From assembly GCA_015233405.1 (NCBI GenBank), contig JADFXT010000014.1, positions 1 to 58,436 of the forward strand: DNA of 58,436 nucleotides, written 5' to 3'. This document shows, piece by piece, positions 26,474-58,436 of this stretch (position 1 is its first letter; each line of letters starts with the position of its first letter). Below the pieces are notes generated by a model. It did not search any database. It saw only the letters and a program-made list of their open reading frames with translations, and was not told where the DNA came from. This DNA is from Candidatus Omnitrophota bacterium (GTDB lineage: Bacteria; Omnitrophota; Gorgyraeia; Zapsychrales; Zapsychraceae). Position numbers and translations under genes: made by a program.

Positions 26474-29400
26474 TTATCCCTTTTTCGTTATTTCTATGGC
26501 CTGTTCCGTCGGGATTTCTAACCCAAGAAGTGGGAACGGACTTGAGATAGGCGTGATGCGGATAATGACCGGCACCACTCCTGTAAAATCTCCACGCTTA
26601 AATTGTTCCACCATCTTGGCATCGAATTTAAACTCAACGCCTTTGCCATCTTTAGAAATATTCATCTGAAGATTCTTGGCGTTTAAGTCGATACCACCGG
26701 GGTTCTTCATATCAGCGCTCATCGCCTTGTCAGTCTTGATTTTATCAATGGCCTGCTTCAATTTCTTAATGGCCAAGTTACGCGTCTTTACATCGTCGAT
26801 GGTCCCGCTTTTTGAAGCATTCTTCACTGCTGCCACGGCCTTTAGGAATGCGTCCTGCGCGATATTCTGGATACTGCCTCTTGTCGTCTTGCTTTGCTTA
26901 TATTTATTTAGCGCGGCGGTGAAGTTGTCCTTGCTTGAAATCACTAGGTTTATGTCATCGGGATCAACGCCCCTAGCCGGCTTAAAAGTGTCAACACTAT
27001 CGTACATATCACCGAGGGAGCCTTTTACGACTACGCCTTTGCTGCGCAGATGGCTGGCCACCATTTGAACGGCAACAGGCATATCCTTTGCCGAAACCTT
27101 AAATTCAATCAGAGCATTCGCTATTTTTTTAGCTAGCTTTTCTTTATCAACTTCTTCGGAATTATTTCCAGTGCTTGTAGACCACCACCAGTGCATACCG
27201 ACACTACGCTCTTCAAGCGCAGTCGTAATCAAATTAAGCAATTCAACGGTGGGTGTTTTTCGGGTTTCTTTCTCTACAATTACAAAAGGCCCGTTTGCTG
27301 ATTCGCCCTTAGCCATCATCGCCTGGTCGATAGATGCGGCTTGCCAAGTTTGAGCAACGATCTTGCGGAAAGTTTTTCTTAATTGATCTTTGAGCGATCT
27401 TTTCCGGAAATAATCAAACTGTTCTGGACCTTTTAAAGATTCATGCGACAGATTATTGATCAAATCCATCGTCGTATCCCAGTCGCCGGATAATGTCTGC
27501 GCGATAGACTTCCAATCGCTTTTGTTGTTAGCGGATTGGATTTTCGTTGTGACGTTTGCAAACATTTCCTTAAGCTGATTATGCGGACGAAGGTCTTCTC
27601 TGTCCTGATAAAAAGTAGGCTCGTTCACTAACGCTGTAAATTCAGAAACAAGCGTTGTGATGTTTTGCTTGGCTTCCTCTGTCGTCATCGCCTGGTCGGC
27701 CGTTGGATTCAGTTCAACCCTATATTTAGTCAAGCCGTCCACAATGATCGGGGTTTTATTAATAGAGAAATCGGCGAAGGTCAGTACATTCTCAACAGCG
27801 CTATTTAATTCCTCGCCGCTCAAGCTTTTGTCCTCTAACCATGAAGCCAACCTTTTTCCTAACATTTTCTGCAGCTGCTCTTTGGTTTCTTCATTTGAGG
27901 CAAAGAATATTGCCTGCCCTTCGGAAACGTTCAAAAATTTCTTTAGCGTGTCATTTTCGCTCACTATTGAAGAATTCTTCCGGTAGTTATCAGCTGCCTT
28001 AAGAAGAAGTCCTCCTGTAAACAGGTAAGCTGCTGCAAGTACGAATGGAAAAATCTGCGCTCCCTGTATAAATTCAACCTCAGGATGATAATGGTTCATC
28101 AAATGATCAATCGTCGCCCATATCATTCCTGCCGCCCCAACAATAGCCAGAGGCCCTAATGTTGCTCCTGCTATTGAAGCTTTAAAATTACCTGCTTTTT
28201 GTTTTCCTAAATTTGTCAGTCTAATGAATATCTGCGGATTTTCTTTTAAGAGCGTAGCAAGTTTCTCGCCGTATTTTTCTAGGTCCGCAGCACTCCAATG
28301 CAGCTGAGCCATCTTTTTTATCAATGCCTTTTCGTTACGAGGCTTCATGGCTTTGATTCCCTTAACAAGGTCAAGGACCATTGCCTTCTCGTCTGAAGAA
28401 AGCTCATTTGTTAATTTGTAAAATTGTTCAGCAGTAAGCAATCGAATAGGTTTAAGCATTTCCTTAGTTATCTTAGCCGTCATCGCAAAATCTTTGGCCG
28501 TGACCGGGCCTTTTTTAGGATTCCCTGCTAAGAATTCATTAACCAGAGATTGAACCGCTTTGGCCGTTTCTGGCTTCATGCCCAGCATGGCTTTGTCGGC
28601 GGTATAAATATATTTCTTCATGATATTTGCCGCAGTTCCCATAACGTTTTGAGCTTTAGTTAAATCACGGTCGACAAGTGCGGGGTCCATTGTTAAGACC
28701 AATAAAAGTCGTCGAGGATTACTGCCTGCTGTTTCCGGACCGGCCCAAGCCCCAAAATAGGTTTGCTTCTTTAATTGAACCACATCAGGGTCAGCCTCAA
28801 ATTTCTCCCGGTCAAACCCTAAAGATTTTCCATTGAGCTTTGATCTTAAGGCGACTTCCATTTTATAAAGTCCGCTACCGGTCAATTGCGCCAGAGTGGA
28901 TTCTTTTTTCACAATCAATTGCTCGACCTGAGATACAGGCACAGAGCTCATGATGGGTTTAATCGTTGTTTCTGGACCATTGTCGATGGCTTGTCTCATA
29001 AGATTTAAGAGATCTAGTTTCGTTGATTCTGGCTCTTTTTCCTCTGATTCACCTGTAACCATGGCGCGGTCAATCCGCGGACCTTGGGTTAAGCGCAGTT
29101 GCACGATCGATTTATGCAAAGCGTCCATATGTTCTAGCATAAGTTGAAGTTTTTTGGATTCTGCAGAACCAGGATTTTTATCGGCTTCTTTCTTGAAATC
29201 CTCAATATATTGCCGAAGAACAGCATCGTTAACTGTTGTCGGCATCTGTATGCTTTGTTCAGCGGACAGTATAGGTAAGCTGGCAAATAAACTAACGGCC
29301 GCGGCCGCTATGAATTTGATAAAAATACTATTGCCTGCCATCATGGCTTTGTCGTCAATACGGCCTTCTTTTAATTGCATGACCGATTCCCGCAAGGTCC

Positions 29401-32400
29401 GCATACTTGTTAAAGCAGCTTTTAGCTCGGCGACTTTTACAGAACGCGGGTCTTTATTAAGTTCAGCCTGCAATTGCGCATTCATCAGATTAATGTCCTG
29501 TTGAAGAACGTCCCCGGTATCACCAATCTTTATCTGAATTATTTGTGATTTTTGTTTCGGAGTGTCGAGGTGCCCGGGCGTAACAAAGGGAATCCCAAAC
29601 ATCCATATTACACTGGCGAGCGCGGCTACAGACAAAAGGGTTCTGGGAATAAGATGTCCCCAAGAGTTTTCATCTACGCTCATAGCCTTGTCAATTGACG
29701 ATGTGATTTGAAGAAATGATTGTTCAAACCTGTCGAAATCGGCAGGTGTTATGTCTTTATTCTTAAATTCCTCTAACCATTGCTGTGAGAGTTTTAAAGC
29801 TTTCTCAATTTCTTGCATGGCTTTCATATCAGCCTGAAGGCCTTTATCTTCAGGTTTTTCTTTAAGCATTAAGGTCACTAGCGGCTTTCCTTCGTTAACC
29901 ACGGAAGATAAAATATCAGCCATGTAGCTTACGCCTAGTATTACACGGGCATTGTATTCTTCTCTTTCACTGGACATCATCGCGCGGTCAACTTTATGAA
30001 AACGTAGAGAATACGTTCCTGAGGTCAAACCAGAAAAACGAAGTCCGGAGCTTCCTTTATTGACGTGTTCTCTTCGGACGACTTGTCCTTTGAGATTATA
30101 AAGTTCAATATCTCCGTTTGTTTTAAACGGTCCGGGGATCAAAAGTTCTCCGTCAGAGGCAATGGTTGCCTTGTATCTCGTCGGATCTTGAAAAATGTTT
30201 GTTCTAATAATCGGCATAAGAACTCCGCTTGCCGCCCCTTCAATGGATGCTTGGGTTGCAAGATTTGCCGGAACAGGAGTTCCTAAATCATCACCTGTCC
30301 AGACGATGTATCCATAATGAAGTGAGATCTGGTCTAATAACGGATGATTGGGCAAGGCGCTGTTGACATCGGACATGGGAATTGTGACTGTGCCGTTTGC
30401 CCCGATCGTATAAACTTTAGAAAGTAATCCTGTAGGCGAGTTCGGATCCTGGCCCGTCGGTAAAAATCGTATTTTAAATTTTTTCCCAGCCGCATCGACT
30501 GGAAAACGAACAATAATGTTTTGGAAATTCTGGCTCCACAGATTATAGGGGGAAGAAAATACGCCGTAGCTTGAATAATCACCGGCAGTTCCTGCGTACC
30601 AACCGGGTAAAGAAGTCACGGTCGCAGCTGAAATACCTAATGCGGCAAGCATTAATGTCAGACCGCCGCCAGCCACATCACCTATAAATTCTCGACGGGT
30701 TGACATGGCATTGTCTTTGTTAAGGACAACTTTATATTTTACGGAACCATTATCCCAGATAGGACTGGCTTGTGTTAAAGAGAAGTCGCCGTAGTCATAA
30801 ATTCTATCAGCCGCCCGGCTTAGGCCCTCAAACCAATTGCCATCGTTATATCGTTCTTTAATCCAATCTTTTAGTCTTTCTTTAAAGGCTTCTGTTGCTG
30901 CATCAGCAAGTTCTTCCGAGTTTTTATCAGCCGGAACTTGAGTAATAGCTCCTGGTTTTTTAGCAGAAATAGTGATGTAAGCATTAGTGTTGTCGAGAAG
31001 AAATTTCTCTAAATATTGATTAGCTGCTTTTTTAAAGAGTTTAGGACGCGGCAAATATCCTAGAATAAGTCCAATTACCATCGTACCTACTCCTTCCATG
31101 AACAAAGTGTCAGGTTGAAGCGCTGCTATGTTCATTTGTGCAAAGGTATTAGCGTGAAATATTGCAACCATAGCTAATCCTAAGCCAATTCCTATAGAAG
31201 ATCTTGCAAAAATATTTCCGCTCCATTCGCTGCTAATCTTAGTCATCAGTTTTTTATTTTTTTGTAAAATTGAATAAAACTGCTGATTAAATTGTGTGAG
31301 ATCTTCTTCAGTCCAGTGTAAGTTTAGAATAACTTTCCAAGCGTCTTCTTCTTTATTAGAATCCATTTGTTTGATGGCATTAATAAACTGCATCATGGAA
31401 TCTTTTTGATTTCCGCCAAATTGAGATAGAAAACCATTTAATTCTTCGTCGGTAAGATCTTTGATGGCGAGAATCAAGGATTTCGATAAAGAAATGACCT
31501 TAGGCCCTGGTTTGACTTTTCCTTTAGATGACTGGCCTTTTTTTAGAAAGTTATTCGTAAGCATAGCTAAGTCTTTGACTGTTTGCATATCCGACGCTGT
31601 GAATTTGTTGTCAGTCACAAGCTGTTTGATGAGAGAGTCTAATAGAGTAACCAAATCGGTTAATTCAGCGTCCGTGCGGGAAGACCGGCCTTGTGCGCGT
31701 AACGCCTTCATTGCGTCAATAAAAGCAGGAACCTTCTGGTCGCGGATATACTGATTCACCGGAGAAATCTCTGCGTTCGTGAAATATTTCCCTTTAGCTG
31801 TAACCTCTATTTGTGCAGCTTCAAAAACATTTTCTAACTGGGTTGCTAGGTCGGTTTTTTTGACAGGAGCTTTCATCTCGGCGCTGTTGTAAAGAGCCGT
31901 TACAATATCCTTAAGTTTGGTGCCACGAGTTGTTGCGTCCACGGTTATCCCATAGCTATTGCGCAGTTCTCTGACGATGCCATTATTGTGTGTCAACTTA
32001 CCTTTGGTCGGGAGCCACAACACGTCGTTGTCGGATTGTTCAGCAAGGACAAGGACGTCGATGAGAATAGCATCGACATTAAAAGAATCTTCGGGTTTAA
32101 CCTGATAAAATCTCTGCCCGCTAAAAGCGCCCATGTAAGAAACAGCCGACGGATTTTTCTTGTCGTCGGGTAAATTTTCAAAATGCGAAAGGACAAGCTT
32201 AATATTTTTTACCTGTTTTTGATGGATATTTTTTGCGGCTTGGCCGAATAAGATATCGTAGAGGGCATCTTGTTTCTGAATGTAATAATTGTCTGTTTTA
32301 AGCGTACTCAAATTCGCATCAAATTCTTGCTGAGTAATTTCTTTAACGCCGTATTTTGCTAATAAAGCCTGAACCGCCACCCAAGGTTGTCCATGAAGTG

Positions 32401-35400
32401 AAGGTGAATTCTGGGCGTTGATCGTCTCAAACATGGGCTTTAAATCGGCCATCATTGCCTGGTCAATTTGTCCTTCCCTTAATGACGCTACTGAATCAGC
32501 CAAAGTCTGTAACTTTGCTATGCCTGCTTTAAGATCAGCAACTTTTACAGAATCAGGGGTTTTCTTAGCAAGTTCAACCTGCAAATCCGCATTCATCCGA
32601 TCGATATATGTCTGAAGAATATCTGCAGACTGGGTTGTAGATTGGATTACTGTGTTCTGCGGTGATGTTAAACGGGAATACACATCTCGAGAGACCGACC
32701 CTGGCTGAATAGCTAGTACCAAATAGAGTGCTAGTATCCCGGCAAAAGCCCCCAGCTCAAGAAGAACACTGCCTACGCTCATGGCCTTGTCAGCATTTTC
32801 TAAAAGAAGCTTCATCTCGCCATACTGTTCTTTGGACATCGATTCTTTGTATTTCGAGAGGATCTCTGAACTAAAACGTTTTAATTCAGCCATCGCGGCT
32901 TTGTGTTGTTCGGCATTTCCCACAGAACGTTCTGCTTCCATTAAAGTTGTCTGGAAACGATTTAAATCTGCGAGGATATCGCTATTTTTTTGGGTATTCC
33001 CTCCTAAAAGATTTGCACTCATAACCGTTTGTAGCGCATTGATAATAATTACAGTTTTTTGAGTAAAAGCCTTGAAGGCTTTCGTTCTTTCTTCCGTCTC
33101 ATTGACTAAAGGTTTAGCCGGTTCAACAGGAGCACTCAATTCTTCGACTGTTGAGTCCTTTTTAGGCATAAATGGGCTTTCATAACTAGGCGACTGCGAG
33201 AGAATATCGACTGATGTTGAAAGTTCTCCTTCAACATCTTCCTCGATTATGGCGCGGACAACCGTCTTCCAATCATATTGACCATTACTTAATCTTGGAA
33301 AATCGGATAAGTATATTGTCTGACCGATTGTTTTATCGTCTTGGATTAAGATAGCAGCATAGTCGGACTTAATTTGAGTAAAACGAAGAGTGAATTTATT
33401 CGTTCCATCGTTAAGAGCATATTCGTGGGTTGTTGATTTTGTTTTATCCAGGGTTAGTTTATCCACATCGACCGTCATGGCGTAGTCTATTTCTACTTTT
33501 TTCCTTGCATTTTCAATGCGCACAGCATATGCCAGAGGATCCCAGCGCTTGTCTTTGGGATATTGTCTGCGAATGCCTTTTTTCCAATCGTCGATGCTCT
33601 TTTTTAACAGTTGCGGATTTTTCACCAGTTGCTTAGCGTCATCCAGATTGACTCTAAAAACAGTCTGTTCATTCTCATAGCCATGTCTTGGAATATACCT
33701 TGCAAAATCATATCGAACACCACGCATTATTACATTCAGAGCGATTTCGACGTCGTTGAGATTTTCTTTTGCTATGGGTATAAGCGCCTGCTCAATTTCG
33801 TCTTGAAAGCTACTGTCGAATACAAAGCTGCCTCGGCCTAAATAGGTAATAACCCCACCTGCCCGGGGATCTGTTTCTGATAGGATCTCCTCAAACATTG
33901 ACTGAATCTTATTGACTATGGACTGTTCGTCTTCGGTCATCATCGCGCGGTCGGATTTTTTCTGCTGACGAATTTTATTCTGAAGTTTTTCAATCCTTGC
34001 TCGTGTTTTTTCCATCCTTTCTTTTATGGCATCTTCTACGCGATCCGCAAGCACCCAGTCATAATATGCCTTCTGAAATGCCAACCGGTCTTGTAAATTC
34101 ATCGCTAACTTTCCTAGCGTAACTTGTGCAGCAGCTAATTGTTGTTTTAATTCAGTCAGATTATTTTTCTCATTGCTTTTTGTCGCCTTTGCCTGGTCCA
34201 CCTTTGTCGTCACCATTGCCATGTCACCGTTGGGAGCCATAGCACTATCGGTTTCGGGAGTTTCAATAGCTTGACGGGCAAGGACTTTCCCGACGCCAAT
34301 TTCAAGACCGCCGGAGAAATATTTTTTAGGAGTTACCTGCTGTGTTGCGGGATCGTATTCTTCCTTAATATAGTTGTAAGCGCCTTTCTTGAACGCTTCG
34401 AGGTATTGAGCGTAAATCTTCTCTTTAATGTTTGGGTCGTTAGTCGTCACGCCACCGATTTTGGCTTTGTCGCTGTAGACCTGGTTCAATAAAGCATCTT
34501 TTAAAGCTTGTTTGTACCACGTCGCTAAAATCATCGAATAAAACATCTGTCTTAACGTCGCGAAGTTCTTTCCTTCGTTGACTTCTTTTTCAATTGCGGG
34601 GATGATGACTTCTTTAATAATTGAAGTGCTGATGTCACTCTTTGCTCCCTTTATGTCATTCCCTGCTACCCTTCTGTCATTCCCGCGGAAGCGGGAATCC
34701 AGTAACCCGTTTTTAGACCCTGGATCCCGGGTCTGCGCCCGGGATGACAAGTCTGATTGGTTGGCTGCCAAATAATCTTTTTCTAACATTACTTTTAAAT
34801 GCGCTCCAACAACATAGGCTGCATCGTTGTGTTCGAAAATCTTCGCTTTATCAGCGACGATCCAGACTTTGTTAAATGTATCGACGGGGATGTCCGTGGT
34901 TCCAAATTTTTGTTTCGCTTCAGCGTAAACTTTATTCCAGAAATCTTTCCCGATCTCTTTTTCTGGGTACATCAAAGATGCGGTCAATTGCTTTAAAATA
35001 TAGTCCTGCGCGAGCATATCCTTACCTAATTCAGTCTTGCCTAATTCGTCAGTCGCGATTCGGTTCTTTTCATACGGTGAAAGGTTGACCCAAAGGTCGC
35101 TTTCCTTAATAGTCATGGAAGCAAGAAAATATTTGATGAGCTTTTCAGATTCGGACTTGAATTCAGGAGTGTTGACACCAATGCCGGACTTACCAGTATC
35201 GAGGATAAAATCGAACAAAAGCGGATTTTCCGGATGGACTTTTAAGCCCTTGATCAGCGTAGGCATGAACGCAGGCGTTAAGCCCACCATACTGCCCGGC
35301 TGTGGCAGGTTCAAAACCTGTGCATAGCTCGGTGGTATGACGGTTGTGGAAATGAACGTGATCGAGAGAATTGTCGACACGATTTTGATGAAAAAATTTT

Positions 35401-35428
35401 TCTGTCTTTTGGGTAGAACGTTTTCCAT
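26474..35428 (-). CDS. Giant modular exported protein 1 (2984 aa) with DxAM-delimited modules
   Basis: Function unknown. A Sec signal peptide (about 1-36, PSYA-Q) leads into a conserved region (about 40-385) shared with giant proteins 2 and 3 (LWVNLSPYEKNR, DMLAQDY, KFGTTDIPVD, TPKKYFSGG). The end (about 2905-2984) is the shared GGID region with PFPLLGLE. Between them, modules are bounded by Asp-x-Ala-Met at about residues 397, 405, 496, 651, 883, 992, 1575, 1817, 1916, 2029, 2123, 2281, 2581, 2704 and 2903. New modules start with a Tat signal (TRREFIG, 1575), a Sec-like signal (2029) and membrane anchors (883, 1916). Three modules of 95-115 aa and two of about 300 aa are duplicates. Residues 1740-1815 look like a FlgD/T9SS-type beta domain. 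An in-frame palindromic repeat lies near residue 230. AGGAG precedes the ATG by about 10 nt. Confidence 0.88.
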   Translation of the reverse strand: MENVLPKRQKNFFIKIVSTILSITFISTTVIPPSYAQVLNLPQPGSMVGLTPAFMPTLIKGLKVHPENPLLFDFILDTGKSGIGVNTPEFKSESEKLIKYFLASMTIKESDLWVNLSPYEKNRIATDELGKTELGKDMLAQDYILKQLTASLMYPEKEIGKDFWNKVYAEAKQKFGTTDIPVDTFNKVWIVADKAKIFEHNDAAYVVGAHLKVMLEKDYLAANQSDLSSRAQTRDPGSKNGLLDSRFRGNDRRVAGNDIKGAKSDISTSIIKEVIIPAIEKEVNEGKNFATLRQMFYSMILATWYKQALKDALLNQVYSDKAKIGGVTTNDPNIKEKIYAQYLEAFKKGAYNYIKEEYDPATQQVTPKKYFSGGLEIGVGKVLARQAIETPETDSAMAPNGDMAMVTTKVDQAKATKSNEKNNLTELKQQLAAAQVTLGKLAMNLQDRLAFQKAYYDWVLADRVEDAIKERMEKTRARIEKLQNKIRQQKKSDRAMMTEDEQSIVNKIQSMFEEILSETDPRAGGVITYLGRGSFVFDSSFQDEIEQALIPIAKENLNDVEIALNVIMRGVRYDFARYIPRHGYENEQTVFRVNLDDAKQLVKNPQLLKKSIDDWKKGIRRQYPKDKRWDPLAYAVRIENARKKVEIDYAMTVDVDKLTLDKTKSTTHEYALNDGTNKFTLRFTQIKSDYAAILIQDDKTIGQTIYLSDFPRLSNGQYDWKTVVRAIIEEDVEGELSTSVDILSQSPSYESPFMPKKDSTVEELSAPVEPAKPLVNETEERTKAFKAFTQKTVIIINALQTVMSANLLGGNTQKNSDILADLNRFQTTLMEAERSVGNAEQHKAAMAELKRFSSEILSKYKESMSKEQYGEMKLLLENADKAMSVGSVLLELGAFAGILALYLVLAIQPGSVSRDVYSRLTSPQNTVIQSTTQSADILQTYIDRMNADLQVELAKKTPDSVKVADLKAGIAKLQTLADSVASLREGQIDQAMMADLKPMFETINAQNSPSLHGQPWVAVQALLAKYGVKEITQQEFDANLSTLKTDNYYIQKQDALYDILFGQAAKNIHQKQVKNIKLVLSHFENLPDDKKNPSAVSYMGAFSGQRFYQVKPEDSFNVDAILIDVLVLAEQSDNDVLWLPTKGKLTHNNGIVRELRNSYGITVDATTRGTKLKDIVTALYNSAEMKAPVKKTDLATQLENVFEAAQIEVTAKGKYFTNAEISPVNQYIRDQKVPAFIDAMKALRAQGRSSRTDAELTDLVTLLDSLIKQLVTDNKFTASDMQTVKDLAMLTNNFLKKGQSSKGKVKPGPKVISLSKSLILAIKDLTDEELNGFLSQFGGNQKDSMMQFINAIKQMDSNKEEDAWKVILNLHWTEEDLTQFNQQFYSILQKNKKLMTKISSEWSGNIFARSSIGIGLGLAMVAIFHANTFAQMNIAALQPDTLFMEGVGTMVIGLILGYLPRPKLFKKAANQYLEKFLLDNTNAYITISAKKPGAITQVPADKNSEELADAATEAFKERLKDWIKERYNDGNWFEGLSRAADRIYDYGDFSLTQASPIWDNGSVKYKVVLNKDNAMSTRREFIGDVAGGGLTLMLAALGISAATVTSLPGWYAGTAGDYSSYGVFSSPYNLWSQNFQNIIVRFPVDAAGKKFKIRFLPTGQDPNSPTGLLSKVYTIGANGTVTIPMSDVNSALPNHPLLDQISLHYGYIVWTGDDLGTPVPANLATQASIEGAASGVLMPIIRTNIFQDPTRYKATIASDGELLIPGPFKTNGDIELYNLKGQVVRREHVNKGSSGLRFSGLTSGTYSLRFHKVDRAMMSSEREEYNARVILGVSYMADILSSVVNEGKPLVTLMLKEKPEDKGLQADMKAMQEIEKALKLSQQWLEEFKNKDITPADFDRFEQSFLQITSSIDKAMSVDENSWGHLIPRTLLSVAALASVIWMFGIPFVTPGHLDTPKQKSQIIQIKIGDTGDVLQQDINLMNAQLQAELNKDPRSVKVAELKAALTSMRTLRESVMQLKEGRIDDKAMMAGNSIFIKFIAAAAVSLFASLPILSAEQSIQMPTTVNDAVLRQYIEDFKKEADKNPGSAESKKLQLMLEHMDALHKSIVQLRLTQGPRIDRAMVTGESEEKEPESTKLDLLNLMRQAIDNGPETTIKPIMSSVPVSQVEQLIVKKESTLAQLTGSGLYKMEVALRSKLNGKSLGFDREKFEADPDVVQLKKQTYFGAWAGPETAGSNPRRLLLVLTMDPALVDRDLTKAQNVMGTAANIMKKYIYTADKAMLGMKPETAKAVQSLVNEFLAGNPKKGPVTAKDFAMTAKITKEMLKPIRLLTAEQFYKLTNELSSDEKAMVLDLVKGIKAMKPRNEKALIKKMAQLHWSAADLEKYGEKLATLLKENPQIFIRLTNLGKQKAGNFKASIAGATLGPLAIVGAAGMIWATIDHLMNHYHPEVEFIQGAQIFPFVLAAAYLFTGGLLLKAADNYRKNSSIVSENDTLKKFLNVSEGQAIFFASNEETKEQLQKMLGKRLASWLEDKSLSGEELNSAVENVLTFADFSINKTPIIVDGLTKYRVELNPTADQAMTTEEAKQNITTLVSEFTALVNEPTFYQDREDLRPHNQLKEMFANVTTKIQSANNKSDWKSIAQTLSGDWDTTMDLINNLSHESLKGPEQFDYFRKRSLKDQLRKTFRKIVAQTWQAASIDQAMMAKGESANGPFVIVEKETRKTPTVELLNLITTALEERSVGMHWWWSTSTGNNSEEVDKEKLAKKIANALIEFKVSAKDMPVAVQMVASHLRSKGVVVKGSLGDMYDSVDTFKPARGVDPDDINLVISSKDNFTAALNKYKQSKTTRGSIQNIAQDAFLKAVAAVKNASKSGTIDDVKTRNLAIKKLKQAIDKIKTDKAMSADMKNPGGIDLNAKNLQMNISKDGKGVEFKFDAKMVEQFKRGDFTGVVPVIIRITPISSPFPLLGLEIPTEQAIEITKKG
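34676..34749 (-). repeat. Palindromic repeat inserted in frame in giant protein 1
   Basis: GTCATTCCCGCGG...GCGGGAATCCAG paired with CTGGATCCCGGG...CCCGGGATGACA. On the minus strand it is read as SSRAQTRDPGSKNGLLDSRF then RGND. It lies between KDYLAANQSD and the conserved SIIKEVIIPAIEKEV, the same place and frame as in giant protein 3 (58311-58384). Confidence 0.9.
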
Positions 35429-40932: not shown

Positions 40933-40936
40933 GAAA

Positions 40937-42043: not shown

Positions 42044-42096
42044 ACGGTATTTATCGAGAATGACCAATAAATAAAGCTTTGTTTTATTATAATGTT

Positions 42097-42222: not shown

Positions 42223-43932
<1,710 letters not shown>

Positions 43933-44599: not shown

Positions 44600-47500
44600 T
44601 TAATGAGCTCTACGACGTTGATGGGCGTGATAGCGAGGATTAGCGGTGAAAATCCGTCGATCTTTATTGCTTCTTCCAAAGGCTGTTCGTAGATCGGTAG
44701 TGGAATCCCTTTGGCATCTTTCTTGATTTCCAAATTCATCATCGACGGATCAAAGTCAATACCGCCTTTTGTATCGCTTGCCATGGCAGCATCCTGCGAA
44801 TTTTGCTTCACAGAATTTATAAAATTCTCAACCTGCTCGGAATCATAGCGATTGGTAATGGGCACTCTTCGCTCATGATGGCCGAAAGCTCGACGGGTCA
44901 ACTTAATCCCAATGGGCGCTTGCCTGCGTTTCCATTCGGCCTTATCGAGCATTTTTCTAACCCGCGTGACCATCTTAAGCGGAAGCCCTGTTTTTTTAGC
45001 CACTTCTTTTATGGAAAGATTATTTTCAACCAGTTCTTTAAGGATCGGGTCGAGTTCAGTTTGATATTTCGGAAGAGAATCTTCATCCTTCTGATCTTCA
45101 CGCAATTCTGCCGACGGCGGGCGGTTGATCATACTTTCCGGAATGATTTCTTTGCCAAGATACTTATTGATATAACGGGCCAATTCAAAAATATCTGATT
45201 TAGAAACGTCTTTAATAAGAGCAAGTCCGCCGGACATGTCGCCATAAATCGTCGTGTAACCGACCGCAGATTCGCTTTTATTGCTGGTCGATAAAAGTAA
45301 ATACCCGTCTGCATTTGAGCGGAACATGAGAAAAACCATGCGAAGCCGTGCTTGAATATTTTCAATGGCAATTTGAGTTGCTTGGGACAATGGTTTCGAA
45401 GACGGTGTCGTCGGCAATAATGTGGCAAGGGCTTCTTTAAAGACCGATTCAATAGGAACTTCTTCAAAGCCGATCTTAAGGTTCTCGGCCAGTTTACGGG
45501 CATCCGATTTTGTTTCTGAAGAATTAAATCTCGTCGGAAGCGACATGGAGTGAACATGTTCAGGACCTAAAGCAATGGCGGCCAGTGCTCCGGTAACGCC
45601 GGAATCAATCCCTCCGCTATTTCCGAAAATAACATCTGTAATGCCGTTTTTACGCATATAGTCTCGTAACCCTAAGATCAACCCTTTAAAAATGAGTTCA
45701 ATCCGTGTTGGGGGAGTTACTTCGGCGATTGGGGGCAAATCAACTTTATCAGAATCTTTAACAAGTTTATTGACCGGGATCGTTGCAGCCAGTTCAGATT
45801 CGGTTCTTTTTTCTGTTTTAACCGGAAGGTCCATGACGAGCATGTCTTCTTCAAAAGGTTTTCCTCTGGCAACCACCTTCCCATCGGGGGAAATAACCAT
45901 ACTATTGCCGTCAAAGACCACTTCATCCTGTCCGCCGACCGTATTTAAATAAATAAACGTGGCGCCGGTATCCTTAGCTCTTTTCGCTACGAGATTCTCG
46001 CGAGTCTTAAGAACTCCTTCTCGATATGGCGACGCTGAAGAGTTAATAATGAGCCGCGCACCTTTTTCCGCCTGTTCTTTGTAAGGGGCGATGACGTGAT
46101 GGTCAACAGGTTCTTGCACGGAATGGCCGTCGAATTCATGTTTGACGCCGTCTTTCTCAACCCAGATGTCTTCGCAATCATTGACGGAAAACATGAGCCC
46201 GTCGATATTAAAAATATCTTTATTAAGCGGATTTCCTTCAAAGTCAAAAAGCCCAAGTTCTCCAGGAATAAAATACCGTTTTTCAAAGAAAACCCCATAG
46301 TTCGGCAAAGCTCTTTTACGGTAAACACCTTTGACTTCTCCGTCGGAAAGGACGGCAAGGGCATTATAAATTTGTCCATATTTATTGATGTCAACGAACC
46401 CAACCACGACCGTGATTCCTTTTCCTTTAGTTTTGGCTGCGAGCAATTTGACCAAAGCCCTATTCTGGTCTATAAATTCCCGATTAAGAAGCAGGTCGCC
46501 CGGTAAATATCCTGTAATCGCCAATTCCGGCGATACGAGCAGGTCGACATTTTTGGTCTCGGCTGTATCGATGGCTTTCGCTAGCCGAGTGTAATTGTCG
46601 ACCATGTCGCCAACGGTCGGATTAAATTGGAGCAATGCCGTACGGACATTTTTGGTTTGCATGGTCCGAAGCTTATCTTCCCGTCGGGAATTCAAAACTT
46701 TTATTAAGGACACCAGCCTTTTCCAGCCTAATGTGTTGGTTATTTCTAGCGCCGCATTTTCACCCTTCAGCCGGTTGTAATTTCGTTTTTGCTCCAGGCT
46801 GCGATCTTCTCCTTGAGGCAAAGCAACAAAAATACCGCCTAGGTCTTTCGTGATACGCGCGGATTCTATCCAGTCATCAAGCACTATTGCCCGGCGGCCC
46901 AAGGATTGTTCCATAAGGTTTTTGATCATTCTTTCGCGCAGGGTATAATTATTTTCTTCTTCCTTGATCGGTAAGGCGTCCTGGCGGTCTCTTCCAAAAA
47001 TATCCTTAAGTTCAATCACGTCGCCAAATCCTGCGTTTTTTAACTGTTGGTAGATAAGCCCGGAATCCCGGCTTGTAACCACTTTGATCGGAATTCCCAG
47101 GTCTTTTAAATTTTTAATTGCTTCGTGCGCCCCTGGCATGGCCTCAAGCGTTACTGAATTTTCGTAATATTTACGCGCTTCAGAAATGGCCTCGATGATC
47201 TCTTCTCTTGTCTTTTGGATGTTTAAGAGAGAGATTTCTCGATGAAGAAGTGTAACGATTTCTTCAAACGGAACATCACGGGTCGTATCGACCATCTGCG
47301 CGATAATGCTTTTTTCTATCCACTGCATCCCTTCTTTAGTCGTATGTCCGCTTAAGGATGCAAACGCGTGCGCATATTCTTCTTTCCAGGCGGGTTTAAG
47401 CAATGTGCCGTGGGCATCGGTGATAACTGTAAAGGGTTTGTCATCTTTAAACGGTTGTCCATTCAAAGAATAGATCGGGTCATGCTTATCCGCCGGGAAA

Positions 47501-50382
47501 ATATCTTCCGGCATATAGAGTTCGTTTTCCGCAATGATTTGTTCAACCTCCGGCGAGACAAAACCCGTTAGCGGTAATCCTAGCGCAACGCGCTGGCGGA
47601 TCATCGTCGCAGAAATATCAATTCCTGGACGTTCGATGCGTTCTACTTTGATCCGAGGGTTAGTTTTATTTTGTCCTGGGCGAGTATAGGTGACGAAATG
47701 CACTTTTTGGGCGAGCTCATCAATATTTTTCCAGGTGTCGAGTTTTTCGATGTTATCGTCGCCGATGATAAAGAAAAATTTGGATTTCTCTGGATATTGG
47801 GCGCGGATATGATTGACCAAATCAATGGTGTAAGAAGGCCCTTCCCGGTCGATATCAAAGCTCGAAACTTTGACGCCCGGCATTCCGGCTACGGCTGCTT
47901 GGGCTATTTTGTAACGAATTTCTTTGGGAGCTGAAAATTTGCCTTGTTTATGAGGAGAAACATTCGTGGGAACGACGATGACTTCATCCACATTAAGTTC
48001 CTGTTTAACGTCTTCGATCATTTTCCGATGGGCGACATGTAACGGGTCAAACGTCCCGCCGATAATGGCGATTCTCTTGGCCTTGGGCGCCTCTTTTTTA
48101 ATGCGAATGCGGTAAGTTTGGAGTGTGTGATAATATTCTTCTTGGTCGGTCCGCGGATTCTCGACGTGTTTAAGCCCGCCGTTTTCCTTTAAGAGCCATT
48201 GTTTCCACTCTTCTGACATCCAGCGTATCTTTAAGGGGACCTCTAAGGCTTTGCCGACGGGTTCGAAGACGATGTTGTCTCCAAATTCATCTAAATATTG
48301 ACGGACATCGTTCATCGCCAGAGAACTAATATCTATATAAATCGCTGCTTCTGGGTTGTTGGGGTTCAGTTTTTTCCAGCCGTCTTTAATGATTTCTCGT
48401 ATCAACCCCGTACCGCGATAAGGATCGTTTTGTGCATTTTTTTCAAATGGCGCGATGGGAACATAAGGCGGATTGACGACAATTAAATCTTGATTATCTT
48501 CAAGCACTGCAATGCCCTTGCCCCAATATTTTTTTACATGATCTAAAAACGCACGGCCTTGAGGATGGTTGGCAATAATATTGAGCAAGGTTGTGCTTAG
48601 GGCATAAGAACTGATGTCGGTAATGGAAATTTGGGCTTTAGGAAAAGACTTGGCTAATAAAGCGGAAAGGTGTCCGCCGCCGGAGCCGATCTCCGCGGCC
48701 TTTTTGATTTTATTTTTCGGCAAAGACAATGCGCCCGATTGGAATAATCTTTGATGGAGAAAAATCGTATCGATATTTGTCGTCCAGACATCTTTATCGA
48801 CATCCATGTCCCAGGACGTTGTTATCCCCTTGTAACGGGTATAGCGTTTGCCTTGAGGCCAGATTTGTTCTATTAGTTTTCCCTTAGACGAATTTTTAAA
48901 ATGTTTGAGCATCCATTTTCTTGGAGACACCAGATAAGAACTCGGGAAAGAAGCGATTTTACGAATCGAGCCGTTAGATTCATTTAAAGTCTCGTAATGA
49001 ACCGCGCCGTCTTTCGTAAAGACTTTAGAATCGTCCAGGACTTGATAATAGGTCAGCGTTTTAAGATCGTCGCTGATGTCGATCAATAATGAAAGTCTAC
49101 CCTTTCGGTCGGCGATCTTGATATCCGGGAATTCTCGCGCTTCAAAATCAGCCACCGGATTGATTGGCAAAAACGACACTTCATGGGCGTCTAAGATCTC
49201 GACGGGATCTTTGTCGCGACGTTTTTTCTTTGCGACAGCTTCCCACGTGACTTGTTGGTCCTTGCCGTCGGGATGTCCAAGAGATTCTTTGACATTCCGA
49301 GGAAGCATGGCCAGATCTCCTTTGAGGACCACCAGGTCATTAGCTGAAGCCGCGCCGACAGCCAGACCGCCGGAAAAATATTTTCTGGGAATGATCTGTT
49401 GGGACGAGACATCGTATTCTTCTTTAATGAGGTTAAAAACGCCTTTACGAAATGTTTCCAAGTATTGTTCGTAAATGTGTTTCTTTTGGGTCAGGTCTTC
49501 GGCATTCACGCCGGAAGTTTTGTTGGCATTTGCATAAACTTTTCCTAAAAAGCTGTTCTGGAGTTGTTTTTTATACCACGACGCTAAGATGAGCGAGTTA
49601 TAGATCTGGCGAAGTGCGGCGAAATTCTTTCCTGTGTTAACTTCCTTCTCGAGCTCTGGAATGATGATTTCCTTGATCATTTGAGTGCTTAGGGACTTTT
49701 TATTTGATGGCTGATCTTTGTTTTCGGCTTCTTGTTTAAGCGCTTTGTAGTCCTCTTCCATTAAAACTTTTAAATGCCGTTCGACGACAAAAGCCTTGTT
49801 GCCTTTCTCATAAACAACGGCTTTATCGGGAGCGATCCAGACCTTGTTAAAAGCGTCGACCGGAATATCCGTTGTCCCAAATTTTTCATAGGCTTTTTTA
49901 TAGGCGCGGTCCCAGAATTTTTTTCCCACTTCTCCCTCGGGATACAAAAGCGATGCCGTGATTTTCTTAAGGAGATAATCCTGGGCGAGCATGTCGCTTC
50001 CCATCTGGGTTTGGCCCAAACCGTCCGGGATCACTCGATTTTTTTCATAAGGAGATAAGTTGACCCACAACTCTTTTTCCGGCACCGTTAAGGCGGCCAG
50101 AAAATATTTGATGAGCTTTTCGGATTCTTTTTTAAAATCTGCGCCGGATAGATTCTGGTCGCCGGTATCGATAATAAAATCAAATTTTAACGGGTTGTCA
50201 GGGTAAACAGATAGTCCTCGGACAATCGTTGGGGCATATTGCACAGAAAGAGTTACCAACTCCGTGGCGCTGGGCATGGATGCTACGGCCTGTGCCCGGG
50301 CATAATCAACAGGAAGAACGCTGCTTAAAAGAAACAGCGCCGATAAAATGATTCGACAAGTTTTATTAATCAAGGATTTCAT
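44593..50382 (-). CDS. Giant exported protein 2 (1929 aa) carrying methyltransferase, NadD, HAD and NadE cargo
   Basis: A Sec signal peptide (about 1-30, YARA-Q) and the conserved N-terminal region (about 40-355, ending RKYFSGG) are shared with giant protein 1. The first DxAM is at Met359. Cargo follows: an SAM-methyltransferase-like domain (about 555-690; EIGSGGG, NPPY near 636), NadD nicotinate-nucleotide adenylyltransferase (about 768-956; GGTFDPLHVAH, ISATMIRQR), a HAD-like domain (about 985-1195; DAHGTLL, VLDDW), and glutamine-dependent NAD synthetase (about 1241-1850). NadE has its amidase Glu-Lys-Cys (SPELAITGY, RKRALPNY, NDCEDIW) and the synthetase P-loop GNSGGIDSG. A second DxAM (DAAM, Met1867) leads into the conserved GGID C-terminal region. 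All catalytic motifs look intact. How a signal peptide fits with NAD synthesis is unexplained. The in-frame palindrome present in the other two giants is missing here. Confidence 0.92.
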   Translation of the reverse strand: MKSLINKTCRIILSALFLLSSVLPVDYARAQAVASMPSATELVTLSVQYAPTIVRGLSVYPDNPLKFDFIIDTGDQNLSGADFKKESEKLIKYFLAALTVPEKELWVNLSPYEKNRVIPDGLGQTQMGSDMLAQDYLLKKITASLLYPEGEVGKKFWDRAYKKAYEKFGTTDIPVDAFNKVWIAPDKAVVYEKGNKAFVVERHLKVLMEEDYKALKQEAENKDQPSNKKSLSTQMIKEIIIPELEKEVNTGKNFAALRQIYNSLILASWYKKQLQNSFLGKVYANANKTSGVNAEDLTQKKHIYEQYLETFRKGVFNLIKEEYDVSSQQIIPRKYFSGGLAVGAASANDLVVLKGDLAMLPRNVKESLGHPDGKDQQVTWEAVAKKKRRDKDPVEILDAHEVSFLPINPVADFEAREFPDIKIADRKGRLSLLIDISDDLKTLTYYQVLDDSKVFTKDGAVHYETLNESNGSIRKIASFPSSYLVSPRKWMLKHFKNSSKGKLIEQIWPQGKRYTRYKGITTSWDMDVDKDVWTTNIDTIFLHQRLFQSGALSLPKNKIKKAAEIGSGGGHLSALLAKSFPKAQISITDISSYALSTTLLNIIANHPQGRAFLDHVKKYWGKGIAVLEDNQDLIVVNPPYVPIAPFEKNAQNDPYRGTGLIREIIKDGWKKLNPNNPEAAIYIDISSLAMNDVRQYLDEFGDNIVFEPVGKALEVPLKIRWMSEEWKQWLLKENGGLKHVENPRTDQEEYYHTLQTYRIRIKKEAPKAKRIAIIGGTFDPLHVAHRKMIEDVKQELNVDEVIVVPTNVSPHKQGKFSAPKEIRYKIAQAAVAGMPGVKVSSFDIDREGPSYTIDLVNHIRAQYPEKSKFFFIIGDDNIEKLDTWKNIDELAQKVHFVTYTRPGQNKTNPRIKVERIERPGIDISATMIRQRVALGLPLTGFVSPEVEQIIAENELYMPEDIFPADKHDPIYSLNGQPFKDDKPFTVITDAHGTLLKPAWKEEYAHAFASLSGHTTKEGMQWIEKSIIAQMVDTTRDVPFEEIVTLLHREISLLNIQKTREEIIEAISEARKYYENSVTLEAMPGAHEAIKNLKDLGIPIKVVTSRDSGLIYQQLKNAGFGDVIELKDIFGRDRQDALPIKEEENNYTLRERMIKNLMEQSLGRRAIVLDDWIESARITKDLGGIFVALPQGEDRSLEQKRNYNRLKGENAALEITNTLGWKRLVSLIKVLNSRREDKLRTMQTKNVRTALLQFNPTVGDMVDNYTRLAKAIDTAETKNVDLLVSPELAITGYLPGDLLLNREFIDQNRALVKLLAAKTKGKGITVVVGFVDINKYGQIYNALAVLSDGEVKGVYRKRALPNYGVFFEKRYFIPGELGLFDFEGNPLNKDIFNIDGLMFSVNDCEDIWVEKDGVKHEFDGHSVQEPVDHHVIAPYKEQAEKGARLIINSSASPYREGVLKTRENLVAKRAKDTGATFIYLNTVGGQDEVVFDGNSMVISPDGKVVARGKPFEEDMLVMDLPVKTEKRTESELAATIPVNKLVKDSDKVDLPPIAEVTPPTRIELIFKGLILGLRDYMRKNGITDVIFGNSGGIDSGVTGALAAIALGPEHVHSMSLPTRFNSSETKSDARKLAENLKIGFEEVPIESVFKEALATLLPTTPSSKPLSQATQIAIENIQARLRMVFLMFRSNADGYLLLSTSNKSESAVGYTTIYGDMSGGLALIKDVSKSDIFELARYINKYLGKEIIPESMINRPPSAELREDQKDEDSLPKYQTELDPILKELVENNLSIKEVAKKTGLPLKMVTRVRKMLDKAEWKRRQAPIGIKLTRRAFGHHERRVPITNRYDSEQVENFINSVKQNSQDAAMASDTKGGIDFDPSMMNLEIKKDAKGIPLPIYEQPLEEAIKIDGFSPLILAITPINVVELINH

Positions 50383-55637: not shown

Positions 55638-58436
55638 CTATCCCACCTTATCCATTGGTGACAACTCCGCCTTCTTCTCCAAATTTTCCTTGCTCGGCTC
55701 AGCCAGCCCCAGCAACGGGAAAATACTTGGAATAGGCACGATGTTGATAATCACCGGCGAAAGATTATCGATGGGCACATCCTTAAATTGTTCCATCACC
55801 TTTGGATCGAACTGAAATGTGAAAGTCCCCTTCGCATCGGATTTTAAATTGATGCTGTTCATGTCGATACCGCCGACGTTGTTATCGGTTACAAGTGCCT
55901 TATCGACGATTTTCTCGCCTCGGACAATTTCAAATGATGTATATTCTGCTTTATCCACTACTGTTTTATAATAATCAACAGGTGATCGTCCAGACATTGG
56001 GAAATATGGTTCTTTCTGAGCCCACTCTAACTCATTTTCGTACTCTCCTTGTGAAATTTCAGCCGCTACAAATACTTCATGGCTTTCCTGCGGATGAAAT
56101 ATTTTGATGATTTCGAAATTATACCCTTCTAATCGAATTTTTAGCGCTTTTTTAAAGACATAACTAATGTTATAGAAAGACTCTGAGTCTTTCAATTTTT
56201 CATAAACCTCTTTAATAATTTTTGGTTGAGTGTTGTATCGACGAGCAAGAATATTGACCGCCTTGATTTGTTTCGTCGGATTATCGCTCTCCAGCCCTTT
56301 TTCAATATACCAATCCGTGGTCCAGGGGACGAGCATAGCTTGATCAGATGTTTTTTTCTCTGCCTCAGGAGAGTTGTCACTATCGTGAGGTGGTATGGTT
56401 TGCCAAGATCCAATTCCGGCGCCTAAATCAAGCCAATAATGCACAGTTCCATCCGCATCAGTATACCAATCGGGAAGTCTATCAGAATCTCCCATCATGG
56501 CCTTGTCAGTGGCGTCGGATAACTTCTCGCCTTTGACAACTTCCCATCTTTCGGGGGAGTCGATAACTTTTGTTTCGCCGGAATAAGAATAACCGGTCAT
56601 ACTATCAGCCCAAGAAAAGAATTCTTTATGGCTCACTTCAGGAGAATGGTTTATCTTAAAATCATATCCTGACACACGGATCCCTAATGCTTTTCGGAAT
56701 AAATTTATGGGGGCGCGATCGGCGAGGATTTTTCTAAAAACCTCTCTAGAGATCTTCGCCTGAGGATGTCCTAATTCTTCCAATTGATCGATCGCTTCTT
56801 TAACGGCAACATAGTTGCTAGACGCTAGAAGGGCTTTGAAGTTCGCGTCAATAAGCTCGCTGGGTAGAACATGAAAATTTTTCAATATTGTTCTAACGGC
56901 TTGACGGGATTGCTTAGACGATCTCTCATATCCTAAATGATTAAACAATGCCTGTTTTATTTTTGCTTGATATTGAGGCTGGTTAAGGTAGCGATACGCT
57001 AAAGCATTTATGGCCTTGATTTGTTTTTTGGGATTACTACTCTTTAGCCCTTTTTGAATATGCCAATCCGTTGTCCCCGGCCAAACCAGCATGGCTTTGT
57101 CGGTCACAAGAGCATTGTCTTTATCCCAGGGGTTTCGCCATTCTCCTACTGGAACATACCTGGGGAATGTCTCTTCAGATTCACTCTTTAAACTTTTTCC
57201 TTGGCTAACGGTAAGGCTTTCTTCCGTCCAATAAGGCGATTCTCCTACTGGAATTCCGATATTGTGAAATTCCGCCGGCACATATTTAACATCAATATCA
57301 AAACCGTCAGCTAAATATTTCTCCGCAAGAGCTATGTGTTCTGAAGTGATAAGATATTCCTTATCAGCAACACGCAGGTTTTTGATAATTGTATTTCTCG
57401 CGTTTCTTTCAGATAAAGGTGTCGTATCTTCGTCTTCATCCCCGCGCGGCCATTCTCCCGGCGAATATGAACGACTCATCATCGCCTGGTCTGTGGCATC
57501 AGCTATCTTCTCGCCTCGGGTGATTTGCATATAAAAATAAGGGGTAAGTCTCCAATCAGTAGCTAAAACAAGTTGTTCATTTGTGATATCACTCACTTCT
57601 ATGATAAAATCATATCCGGACAATCTAATTTTTAATGCTTTTTGAAAATATTCCCCAATTTCAACATAATCTTGAAAAGCATATCCCAACAACGAGTCAA
57701 CCAGCCTTTGATAAACTTGTTGATATATTTTTATCTTAGGATCGCCCAAACTCTTCAGCTGATCAATAATTTCTTTGATGGCTGGAAAATATTGCGCAGT
57801 CTTCAGTGCTTCCCGATAATGGTCTATAGCTTCCTTAGAGGCTATCGCTTTATCATTCTTTCCCGCAATATTGACCGACATATTGAAATCCTGCCCGACG
57901 ATGGAACGGGCGATTTCTTTTGCGCTGGCGGTTTTCATGGCCAGGTCAGCATCCTTAAACCCGCCGGAAAAATATTTCTTAGGCGTGATCTGTTGCGTCT
58001 TAGGGTCGTACTCTTCCTTCATATAGTTATAGACACCTTTTTTATAGGCTTCCATGTACTGTGCGTAAATTTCTTCTTTGGCTTTCGGATTATTTTCATC
58101 AATGCCTGTAACTTTATTTTTATTAATATACGACGAGGAAAGAATACTGTTACGGACCTTCTCTTTATACCACTTAGCTAAGATGAGCGAATGATAGATC
58201 TGACGAAGCGGGGCAAAATTCTTGCCTTCATTGACTTCTTTCTCAATTTCGGGAAGGATGATTTGTTTGATAATAGAAGAAGAAAGTTTGTCATTCCCAC
58301 TTATTTTTCTGTCATTCCCGCGAAGGCGGGAATCCAGTAACCCGTTTTTTGACCCTGGATCCCGGGTCTGCGCCCGGGATGACAAAGAAGAAAAAGCGGG
58401 ATGACTAGAAGCAGCTTGACTGGAAGTAGATTGATT
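55638..58436 (-). CDS. Giant modular protein 3, 5'-partial (runs off the window)
   Basis: About 932 codons are visible; the frame stays open to the right edge, so the N-terminus and any signal peptide lie outside. The visible start (NQSTSSQAASSH...) leads into the in-frame palindrome peptide, then the shared N-terminal region (IIKQIILPEIEKEV, EEYDPKTQQITPKKYFSGG). DxAM or DxAL joints have Met near 57938, 57482, 57092, 56498 and 56336, with DKAL near 55900. The modules resemble one another: LVWPGTTDWHIQKGL and LVPWTTDWYIEKGL starts, HEAT-like helical middles, and ALKIRLSGYDFII / ALGIRVSGYDFKI / ALKIRLEGYNFEI ends, followed by RGEKIADATDQAM-like joints. The C-terminal GGID region closes with PLLGLAEPS. 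Function unknown. Confidence 0.85.
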   Translation of the reverse strand, partial: NQSTSSQAASSHPAFSSLSSRAQTRDPGSKNGLLDSRLRGNDRKISGNDKLSSSIIKQIILPEIEKEVNEGKNFAPLRQIYHSLILAKWYKEKVRNSILSSSYINKNKVTGIDENNPKAKEEIYAQYMEAYKKGVYNYMKEEYDPKTQQITPKKYFSGGFKDADLAMKTASAKEIARSIVGQDFNMSVNIAGKNDKAIASKEAIDHYREALKTAQYFPAIKEIIDQLKSLGDPKIKIYQQVYQRLVDSLLGYAFQDYVEIGEYFQKALKIRLSGYDFIIEVSDITNEQLVLATDWRLTPYFYMQITRGEKIADATDQAMMSRSYSPGEWPRGDEDEDTTPLSERNARNTIIKNLRVADKEYLITSEHIALAEKYLADGFDIDVKYVPAEFHNIGIPVGESPYWTEESLTVSQGKSLKSESEETFPRYVPVGEWRNPWDKDNALVTDKAMLVWPGTTDWHIQKGLKSSNPKKQIKAINALAYRYLNQPQYQAKIKQALFNHLGYERSSKQSRQAVRTILKNFHVLPSELIDANFKALLASSNYVAVKEAIDQLEELGHPQAKISREVFRKILADRAPINLFRKALGIRVSGYDFKINHSPEVSHKEFFSWADSMTGYSYSGETKVIDSPERWEVVKGEKLSDATDKAMMGDSDRLPDWYTDADGTVHYWLDLGAGIGSWQTIPPHDSDNSPEAEKKTSDQAMLVPWTTDWYIEKGLESDNPTKQIKAVNILARRYNTQPKIIKEVYEKLKDSESFYNISYVFKKALKIRLEGYNFEIIKIFHPQESHEVFVAAEISQGEYENELEWAQKEPYFPMSGRSPVDYYKTVVDKAEYTSFEIVRGEKIVDKALVTDNNVGGIDMNSINLKSDAKGTFTFQFDPKVMEQFKDVPIDNLSPVIINIVPIPSIFPLLGLAEPSKENLEKKAELSPMDKVG
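58311..58384 (-). repeat. Palindromic repeat inserted in frame in giant protein 3
   Basis: Nearly identical to 34676-34749, and read in the same frame (SSRAQTRDPGSKNGLLDSRL then RGND) at the equivalent position, just before SSIIKQIILPEIEKEV. Confidence 0.9.

Follow-up and report, generated by a model that had tools for sequence, protein, structure and literature searches.

This study concerns a 58,436-nucleotide stretch of DNA from a Candidatus Omnitrophota bacterium (contig JADFXT010000014.1; hereafter the window), which carries three giant open reading frames (ORFs), G1, G2 and G3, punctuated by a recurrent Asp-x-Ala-Met peptide (DxAM) that we call the joint. We consider it probable that these giant genes are polyproteins of one family, likely to be cut at the joint by a dedicated, putative protease. 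A sequence-only reading of the window had proposed that the peptide is either a processing site or the scar of gene fusions. Its role as a functional junction between modules stands, and of these two options the data favour processing: the joints lie at module boundaries, their D, A and M are conserved, signal-peptide-like segments follow them, and their sequence is specific to the lineage.

A family of giant proteins with one joint

G1 and G2 share a head of ~340 amino acids (aa) that starts with a signal peptide and ends in KYFSGG, and G3 has the C-terminal part of it; all three proteins end in a tail of ~60-80 aa beginning GGID (Table 1). The G2 head matches 47 segments of the 2.38-Mb genome, which merge into 37 distinct head-bearing ORFs (a 58-aa head fragment on contig C13 was left out). 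Together these ORFs span 72,194 aa from stop to stop, or 9.1% of the genome's bases. Some are partial, with no start in G3 and C7_42195; the longest has 4007 aa, in a set where some are cut by contig ends, and none reaches the 20-kb giant-ORF class. The tail is present in 31 of the 37, and four of the other six run into a contig end. A genome-wide search with the tail returned 36 matches; the shortest open frame among them, 104 aa, lies at a contig end. A signal-peptide-like segment starts all 16 heads that were aligned.

The joint recurs far beyond chance. G1, G2 and G3 hold 17, 2 and 5 copies of DxAM (about 15, 2 and 5 in the sequence-only reading), compared to composition-shuffle means of 0.54, 0.16 and 0.08 (maxima 6, 3 and 2 in 5000 shuffles) and order-1 Markov expectations of 1.45, 0.25 and 0.36; these counts show that the original observation was right. 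Taken alone, the count in G2 is weak, lying below its shuffle maximum, yet both of its sites flank cargo. Among six gapped tripeptide layouts tried on G1-G3, D.AM showed the largest excess (24 versus 0.75). The DKAL variant noticed earlier in G3 is real as well (aa 845, window 55893-55904).

To describe the joint across the genome, we used the cargo regions of 35 ORFs (56,892 aa), excluding two fragments without a readable head end. These regions contain 191 DxAM where 7.5 are expected; six further sites outside cargo, some of them FDPAM inside tails, bring the set to 197. The consensus is D-x-A-M-[T/M/V/A/S]-[T/A/S/V], with x mostly K, A, Q or R, and the flanks carry little information over the 197 sites: 0.42 bits at -1 and 0.33 at +6, falling mostly to 0.2 or below at positions further out. 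The sequence-only reading had likened the residues after Met to those of real N-termini; instead, positions +4 and +5 belong to the motif itself. D, A and M stand out at their positions: the best substitute is H at the D position (5 versus 2.0 expected), H at the A position (3 versus 1.6) and R at the M position (22 versus 12.9, where Met has 191 versus 7.7). D.AL occurs at chance (26 versus 26.8), so that the DxAL, DxAI and DxTM forms at some head and tail joints are rare variants. The stretches of DNA around the head segments also contain 72 other ORFs, each 150 aa or longer (19,320 aa in all), and these have just three DxAM; two of them belong to the end piece of a head-bearing ORF that a locus border truncates, and the third, in C43_66217, lies directly behind a head-bearing ORF without a tail.

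The joints mark boundaries. In 30 of 35 ORFs no more than 60 aa separate KYFSGG from the first DxAM (32 with the looser pattern D.[AT][MLI]), and in 26 of 31 the last DxAM is similarly close to GGID, at 60 aa or less upstream (30 with the looser pattern). In the 17 ORFs with Pfam domains, only 1 of 112 DxAM lies inside a domain, compared to 11.7 if placement were uniform; for each family this test took the best-matching stretch, it admitted a few matches that fall short of the curated cut-off, and it relied on hand-transcribed coordinates and a manually extended end of the CN_hydrolase domain in G2. The sole domain-internal motif is a DDAM within a PRTase-CE unit. The gap between joint and domain can be tiny: in one case 6 aa separate the end of a URO-D match from the joint that follows, and in another an HPr match starts 7 aa after the Met. 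Homologous cargo blocks respect the joints too. We counted a block pair when both members have a joint no more than 15 aa from the block boundary: of 52 pairs, 21 qualify by their ends (null 0.87, maximum 5) and 10 by their starts (null 0.95, maximum 6); with the block pairs of two pairs of tandem-array ORFs removed, the 38 remaining pairs give 10 ends (null 1.0, maximum 4) and 9 starts (null 0.7, maximum 5). The ORFs hold several independent protein units, with Pfam enzymes side by side and cargo blocks shuffled. The division into modules proposed earlier stands; the proposed range of 50-580 aa does not, since genome-wide the 159 inter-joint distances have a median of 270 aa and range from 8 to 1508.

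In a tandem array of PRTase-CE domains, near-repeat units are separated by DxAM about every 290 aa. Such arrays occupy L010:187-12207 and L009:540-11144, where one ORF has nine matched stretches and the adjacent one five.

The joint is also selectively conserved. In 65 aligned crossings at no more than 70% identity, the motif D is identical in 83%, the A in 88% and the M in 83%, compared to 18% for x and 25-45% for the eight residues before; elsewhere in these alignments, D, A and M residues reach 45, 42 and 38%. At the nucleotide level, codon variation at the joint was borne out, with 107 different 12-mers encoding the 197 sites, although the GC content at third codon positions (GC3) is raised at the joint Ala (0.85 versus 0.44 overall). 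Part of this bias is a codon-pair effect, as Ala codons before Met elsewhere are 73% GCC or GCG compared to 85% at the joint. The joint Asp codon is GAC in 64% of cases against a background of about 36-38%, and the codon-pair effect does not explain this.

Signal-peptide-like segments, called by eye from hydrophobicity and motif counts, tend to follow the joint directly. Of the 27 hydrophobic segments in cargo, 16 lie within 40 aa after a joint Met (at 2-23 aa), compared to a null mean of 4.7 and a maximum of 12 in 2000 draws. Twin-arginine (Tat)-type RRxF signals open four modules, at a distance of 2-10 aa from the Met (in one case the Met of a variant DKTM), and one module starts with a lipobox. 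One G1 module has a Tat-type signal at its start and a sub-threshold type IX secretion system (T9SS) C-terminal sorting domain immediately ahead of the following joint, and in this resembles a secreted protein complete in itself.

Structure prediction agrees with this placement. In a full-length model of a 705-aa member (head-DLAM-kinase-DKAM-tail), the head and kinase domains are predicted well. Around the first joint the predicted local distance difference test (pLDDT) score is 20-35, and the second joint lies at a linker edge where confidence falls from 63 to 37. In this one model, then, the earlier expectation that the motif lies outside folded domains is borne out.

The cargo is rich in enzymes. 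The Pfam scan, which covered 34 of the 37 head-bearing ORFs, matched adenylate kinase, dephospho-CoA kinase with nucleotidyltransferase, NAD synthase, HPr, GHMP kinase, nucleotide-sugar enzymes, URO-D, methyltransferases, NDK, HAD and TPR, alongside many modules without assignment; 14 of the 31 ORFs scanned outside G1-G3 had no match at E 0.001. The HPr-like cargo retains the active-site His, as read by eye. We ruled out that the giants hold the only copies of CoaE and ADK: stand-alone copies exist, and the giant copies are extra and lower-scoring. The NAD synthase of G2 (window 44917-45681) is the only full family match in an assembly that is 84% complete; a stand-alone NadE occurs in 20 of 23 relatives. 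CoaE-like domains also occur in two relatives (G025:C5:4595-5143 and G004:C51:21042-21593), where the open frames that hold them are 33,383 aa and 8,721 aa long.

The head and tail match no known family: there was no Pfam match above cut-off over either in the 34 ORFs scanned, apart from a sub-threshold DUF896 match in the G1 head (E 0.044), and no NCBIfam match in the three proteins scanned. The model of the head is confident (pLDDT 82.3, predicted TM-score 0.77); searched against PDB, the head alone gave no matches by profile and no folds at E <= 0.001, and so no function follows from the model.

The head also contains in-frame palindromic repeat elements, translated as SSRAQTRDPGSKNGLLDSRLRGND or VGAGFPRPDDKGRGNRAPT type (window 34643-34756 and 58281-58403). 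The same head loop carries palindromic elements in 18 head-bearing ORFs of the genome; they resemble in-frame palindromic elements that occur in other bacteria.

Joints in related genomes

The head is present in 34 of 37 genomes of the same genus, family and order, including our own genome, and in 37 of 145 genomes drawn from the phylum (own included), where it is dense in its own order and occurs mostly as a few divergent copies in sister orders. Of the 488 head loci in a collection of named genomes, the best 80 are labelled as metagenome-assembled Omnitrophota, a phylum that includes Ca. Aceula and Zapsychrus, except two labelled only 'bacterium'. Among the 120 listed of 2409 homologous proteins, three source names fall outside Omnitrophota (Desulfobulbaceae, Bathyarchaeia and Pacearchaeota); we take these for misbinned contigs.

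Three genomes of the same family or order (G016, G024 and G026) have no head match despite a completeness of 85-95%, which suggests loss of the whole family.

To compare joints between genomes, we sampled 30 relatives with 90 head-bearing ORFs, 89 of them with readable cargo; the ORFs come from the matches listed, so that weak matches are under-sampled. Eleven relatives use D.AM (6-28 found, 0.3-2.0 expected). Two use D.SM (6 and 7 versus 0.3-0.4), with D.AM at 1 and 0; one uses D.AVL (7 versus 0.2); and four use SSP[VIA] (4-8 versus 0.0-0.2), with D.AM at 0-1. In several ORFs SSP, like DxAM, comes directly after the head or before the tail. SSP is also high in three named genomes (8, 10 and 10 versus 0.0-0.2), two of which appear to duplicate G012 and G030 and are not independent. 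In 14 partial ORFs of sister orders we found 13 SSP[VILA] (0.63 expected) and no D.AM (0.63 expected); from this comparison of sequences, the SSP joint may be the older form.

The joint therefore differs between genomes and is largely uniform within one, which is the pattern expected from a trans-acting reader. Most tellingly, some relatives that have the same head and tail have put another joint in its place, so that the long proteins are likely chopped into separate proteins by a dedicated, putative protease. The link between joint and signal segment extends to the relatives with DxAM in weaker form (8 of 27 segments follow the motif; null 2.2, maximum 7). In the DxSM genomes we found no hydrophobic cargo segment of this type.

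Proposed cutting and its rivals

Each chain consists of a head, a string of cargo proteins and usually a tail, strung together by the joint; in the reading that we prefer, the joint would be the cutting site at which each cargo is released as a separate protein. Cutting would take place in the cytoplasm or at the translocon, probably before export, because only then could the internal signal peptides serve as N-termini. Each genome would have a single trans-acting protease that reads the joint, and the protease and its sites would have changed together in evolution. Some of the released cargo would then follow its own signal, of Sec, Tat or lipoprotein type. Most simply, the head would serve in export and the tail as a C-terminal recognition or sorting element. 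For the picture in its fullest form we see an even chance: a cellular polyprotein system in ~9% of the genome, with nearly 200 joints, one code and one protease, whose lineages rewrote their joints (SSP[VI], DxSML, DxAVL, DxAM) in step and whose cargo goes to its own Sec, Tat or lipoprotein destination.

Several observations weigh against cutting. No peptidase is among the Pfam hits of the 34 ORFs scanned, so that the cutter would have to act in trans; of ten neighbouring genes in the window, nine have Pfam matches and none is a peptidase, the scan for peptidases being confined to these genes and ORFs within the genome. In G2, no joint separates the methyltransferase, CTP_transf_like, HAD and NAD synthase domains of the 1508-aa cargo, so that not every domain would be released. 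The two tandem arrays supply 44 of the 65 aligned crossings, and the contrast is smaller in the remaining 21, where D is kept in 19, A in 18, M in 19 and the preceding eight residues in 11-16. The raised GC3 at the joint leaves room for a role of the nucleic acid. Eleven of the 27 hydrophobic segments do not follow DxAM (one of these follows a DxTM variant), and segments follow the motif in 0 of 7 cases in the SSP group and 1 of 19 in the group with unclear joints; the signal-peptide argument therefore rests on the DxAM lineages. Among the 30 relatives, three show only weak D.AM (G005, G018 and G028), nine show no clear joint, with one to four ORFs sampled each, and two show mixtures (15 D.AM with 3 SSP in G014; 11 D.AM with 4 D.SML in G022). 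Finally, the low pLDDT of linkers and tail in the 705-aa model partly reflects a thin alignment, as few alignment rows cover them.

The main rival is an intact chain with a recognised or modified linker: the giants would stay whole, as large secreted or surface proteins, and the joint would be structural or modified, for example a glycosylation or partner-binding site. We consider this unlikely, although several observations suit it. The joints lie between domains, and in the one model they fall within low-confidence linkers or at their margin; a signal-peptide-like segment starts the 16 aligned heads; T or S at +4/+5 and the S in SSP would suit glycosylation; and the literature (PMC10066038) treats Omnitrophota giants as surface adhesins or coats. 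An intact chain leaves unexplained, however, why signal-peptide-like and Tat segments come right after the joint and why cytosol-type enzymes are cargo, and one short motif per junction, with Met as the sole strongly enriched residue, would be odd for a glycan site.

Less likely again is a fusion scar: repeated fusion of genes or shuffling of modules would have left the joint behind, DNA copying between paralogues would have spread it, and the peptide would have no present function. Shuffled cargo blocks do end at the joint, added genes seem to have brought their own start region along, joints are alike within a genome and different between genomes, GC3 is raised at the motif, and outside the tandem arrays the flanks are fairly conserved as well. 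Copying would have carried the flanks along, yet over the 197 sites these hold little information, and the sites are spelled by 107 different 12-mers; part of the codon bias, though not that of Asp, is a codon-pair effect. The fusion scar explains the shuffling, but not why the D, A and M of the joint are about twice as well conserved as those elsewhere. Copying of the joint at the DNA level is disfavoured by the variety of codons and, taking all sites together, by how little the flanks resemble each other, a judgement tempered by the raised GC3 and by the smaller flank contrast outside the arrays.

That the joint Met is an internal translation start, with modules made separately, is very improbable even though signal-peptide-like sequence often follows it: a Shine-Dalgarno-like sequence precedes 24 of 197 junction ATGs (12%) and 191 of 1659 other internal ATGs (12%), compared to 8 of 21 ORF starts in the window by the same crude pattern, and the conserved D and A upstream of the Met would be needless for a start codon. 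Nor is the Met a relic start codon, since relatives use DxSM, DxAVL or SSP[VI] at the same place; that the DxAV and SSP[VI] lineages have no ATG at the joint counts against internal initiation as well.

We also rejected dibasic processing as a rule (a dibasic pair lies near only 22 of the 197 sites), inteins (no intein or Hint Pfam match in the 34 ORFs scanned, and a conserved joint of ~six residues) and ribosome skipping of the 2A type, whose motif is D-x-E-x-N-P-G-P (0 D.E.NPGP and 0 NPGP in the 37 ORFs).

Features of the window and their meaning

The coordinates of the three giant ORFs and their parts are collected in Table 1. A thiamine-type cluster lies between G1 and G2 (window 39997-43884), with ThiC, a radical SAM protein with a BATS domain and a pyridine nucleotide oxidoreductase.

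Table 1. Giant ORFs of the window, with heads, tails, junctions and domains; aa, residue number within the ORF.
ORF	Feature	aa	Window position	Strand	Score
G1	giant ORF, 2984 aa, head-modules-tail, 17 DxAM		26474..35428	minus	
G1	head: signal peptide and conserved domain ending KYFSGG		34307..35428	minus	
G1	tail, GGID...PVIIRITPI		26477..26698	minus	
G1	junction DSAM, first after head	394	34238..34249	minus	
G1	junction DMAM	402	34214..34225	minus	
G1	junction DRAM-M	493	33941..33952	minus	
G1	junction DYAM	648	33476..33487	minus	
G1	junction DKAM, then hydrophobic segment	880	32780..32791	minus	
G1	junction DQAM-M	989	32453..32464	minus	
G1	junction DLAM	1286	31562..31573	minus	
G1	junction DNAM, then Tat-type signal STRREFIGD...	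1572	30704..30715	minus	
G1	T9SS-type C-terminal sorting domain (Por_Secre_tail), sub-threshold, ends at next junction		29990..30136	minus	18.7 bits (cut-off 27); 21.3 bits (cut-off 23)
G1	junction DRAM-M	1814	29978..29989	minus	
G1	junction DKAM, then hydrophobic segment	1913	29681..29692	minus	
G1	junction DKAM-M, then Sec-type signal-like segment	2026	29342..29353	minus	
G1	junction DRAM	2120	29060..29071	minus	
G1	junction DKAM	2278	28586..28597	minus	
G1	junction DFAM	2313	28481..28492	minus	
G1	junction DQAM	2578	27686..27697	minus	
G1	junction DQAM-M	2701	27317..27328	minus	
G1	junction DKAM, last before tail	2900	26720..26731	minus	
G2	giant ORF, 1929 aa, head - methyltransferase/CTP_transf_like/HAD/NAD synthase cargo - tail		44593..50382	minus	
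G2	head		49366..50382	minus	
G2	junction DLAM, head/cargo	356	49306..49317	minus	
G2	MTS methyltransferase domain		48463..48723	minus	
G2	CTP_transf_like domain, NadD-like by our own reading		47590..48066	minus	
G2	HAD hydrolase domain, below threshold		47017..47430	minus	23.4 bits (cut-off 26.4)
G2	CN_hydrolase domain, upstream of NAD synthase		46162-46644	minus	
G2	NAD synthase domain		44917..45681	minus	
G2	junction DAAM, cargo/tail	1864	44782..44793	minus	
G2	tail		44596..44766	minus	
G3	giant ORF, 932 aa in window, 5' end beyond window		55638..58436	minus	
G3	head, C-terminal part		57960..58436	minus	
G3	junction DLAM, head/cargo	164	57936..57947	minus	
G3	junction DQAM-M	316	57480..57491	minus	
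G3	junction DKAM	446	57090..57101	minus	
G3	junction DKAM-M	644	56496..56507	minus	
G3	junction DQAM	698	56334..56345	minus	
G3	variant junction DKAL, cargo/tail	845	55893..55904	minus	
G3	tail		55641..55874	minus	

Known systems offer partial parallels. Viral polyproteins of the picornavirus or flavivirus type likewise combine a long ORF, several proteins and a short recurring joint site, with internal signal peptides just after some sites; our system differs in its cellular genome, its 37 different ORFs in one genome, its shared head and tail, and in that no protease was seen in the ORFs scanned. Precursors of ribosomally synthesized and post-translationally modified peptides with several cores also have a leader, a repeated recognition peptide and variable cargo. 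In contrast to these, the cargo here consists of proteins and enzymes, with an inter-joint median of 270 aa, rather than of peptides.

Giant proteins as such are familiar from this phylum. Seymour et al. 2023 (PMC10066038) describe Omnitrophota ORFs of more than 20 kb with few annotated domains as likely surface proteins, including a 39,678-aa protein of Velamenicoccus archaeovorus; they share with ours the phylum, the huge ORFs and the few annotated domains, but in the passages covered no shared head, tail or joint is described, and the ORFs here do not exceed 4007 aa. Omnitrophica are among the phyla rich in huge proteins (PMC11573180), and reports on giant genes in the Planctomycetes-Verrucomicrobia-Chlamydiae superphylum (PMC12057145, PMC11573180) likewise find giant proteins prevalent in Omnitrophota and their relatives. 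The term polyprotein is absent from PMC11573180 and PMC10066038, and we found no description of Omnitrophota polyproteins, or of bacterial polyproteins with processing, in a literature search that covered subscription papers and bioRxiv preprints thinly.

According to a 2025 report (PMC12057145), the post-transcriptional integrity of giant proteins remains unclear. A short, known joint sequence would make the integrity of giant bacterial proteins directly testable in existing metaproteomes. If the chains are cut, a cellular organism would be running a polyprotein economy, packaged in a head-tail format and served by a site-specific protease. The lineages with different joints would then amount to a natural experiment, in which a protease and many of its sites were changed together. 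The counting and annotation of proteins in this order would change as well, in that one ORF would stand for many proteins.

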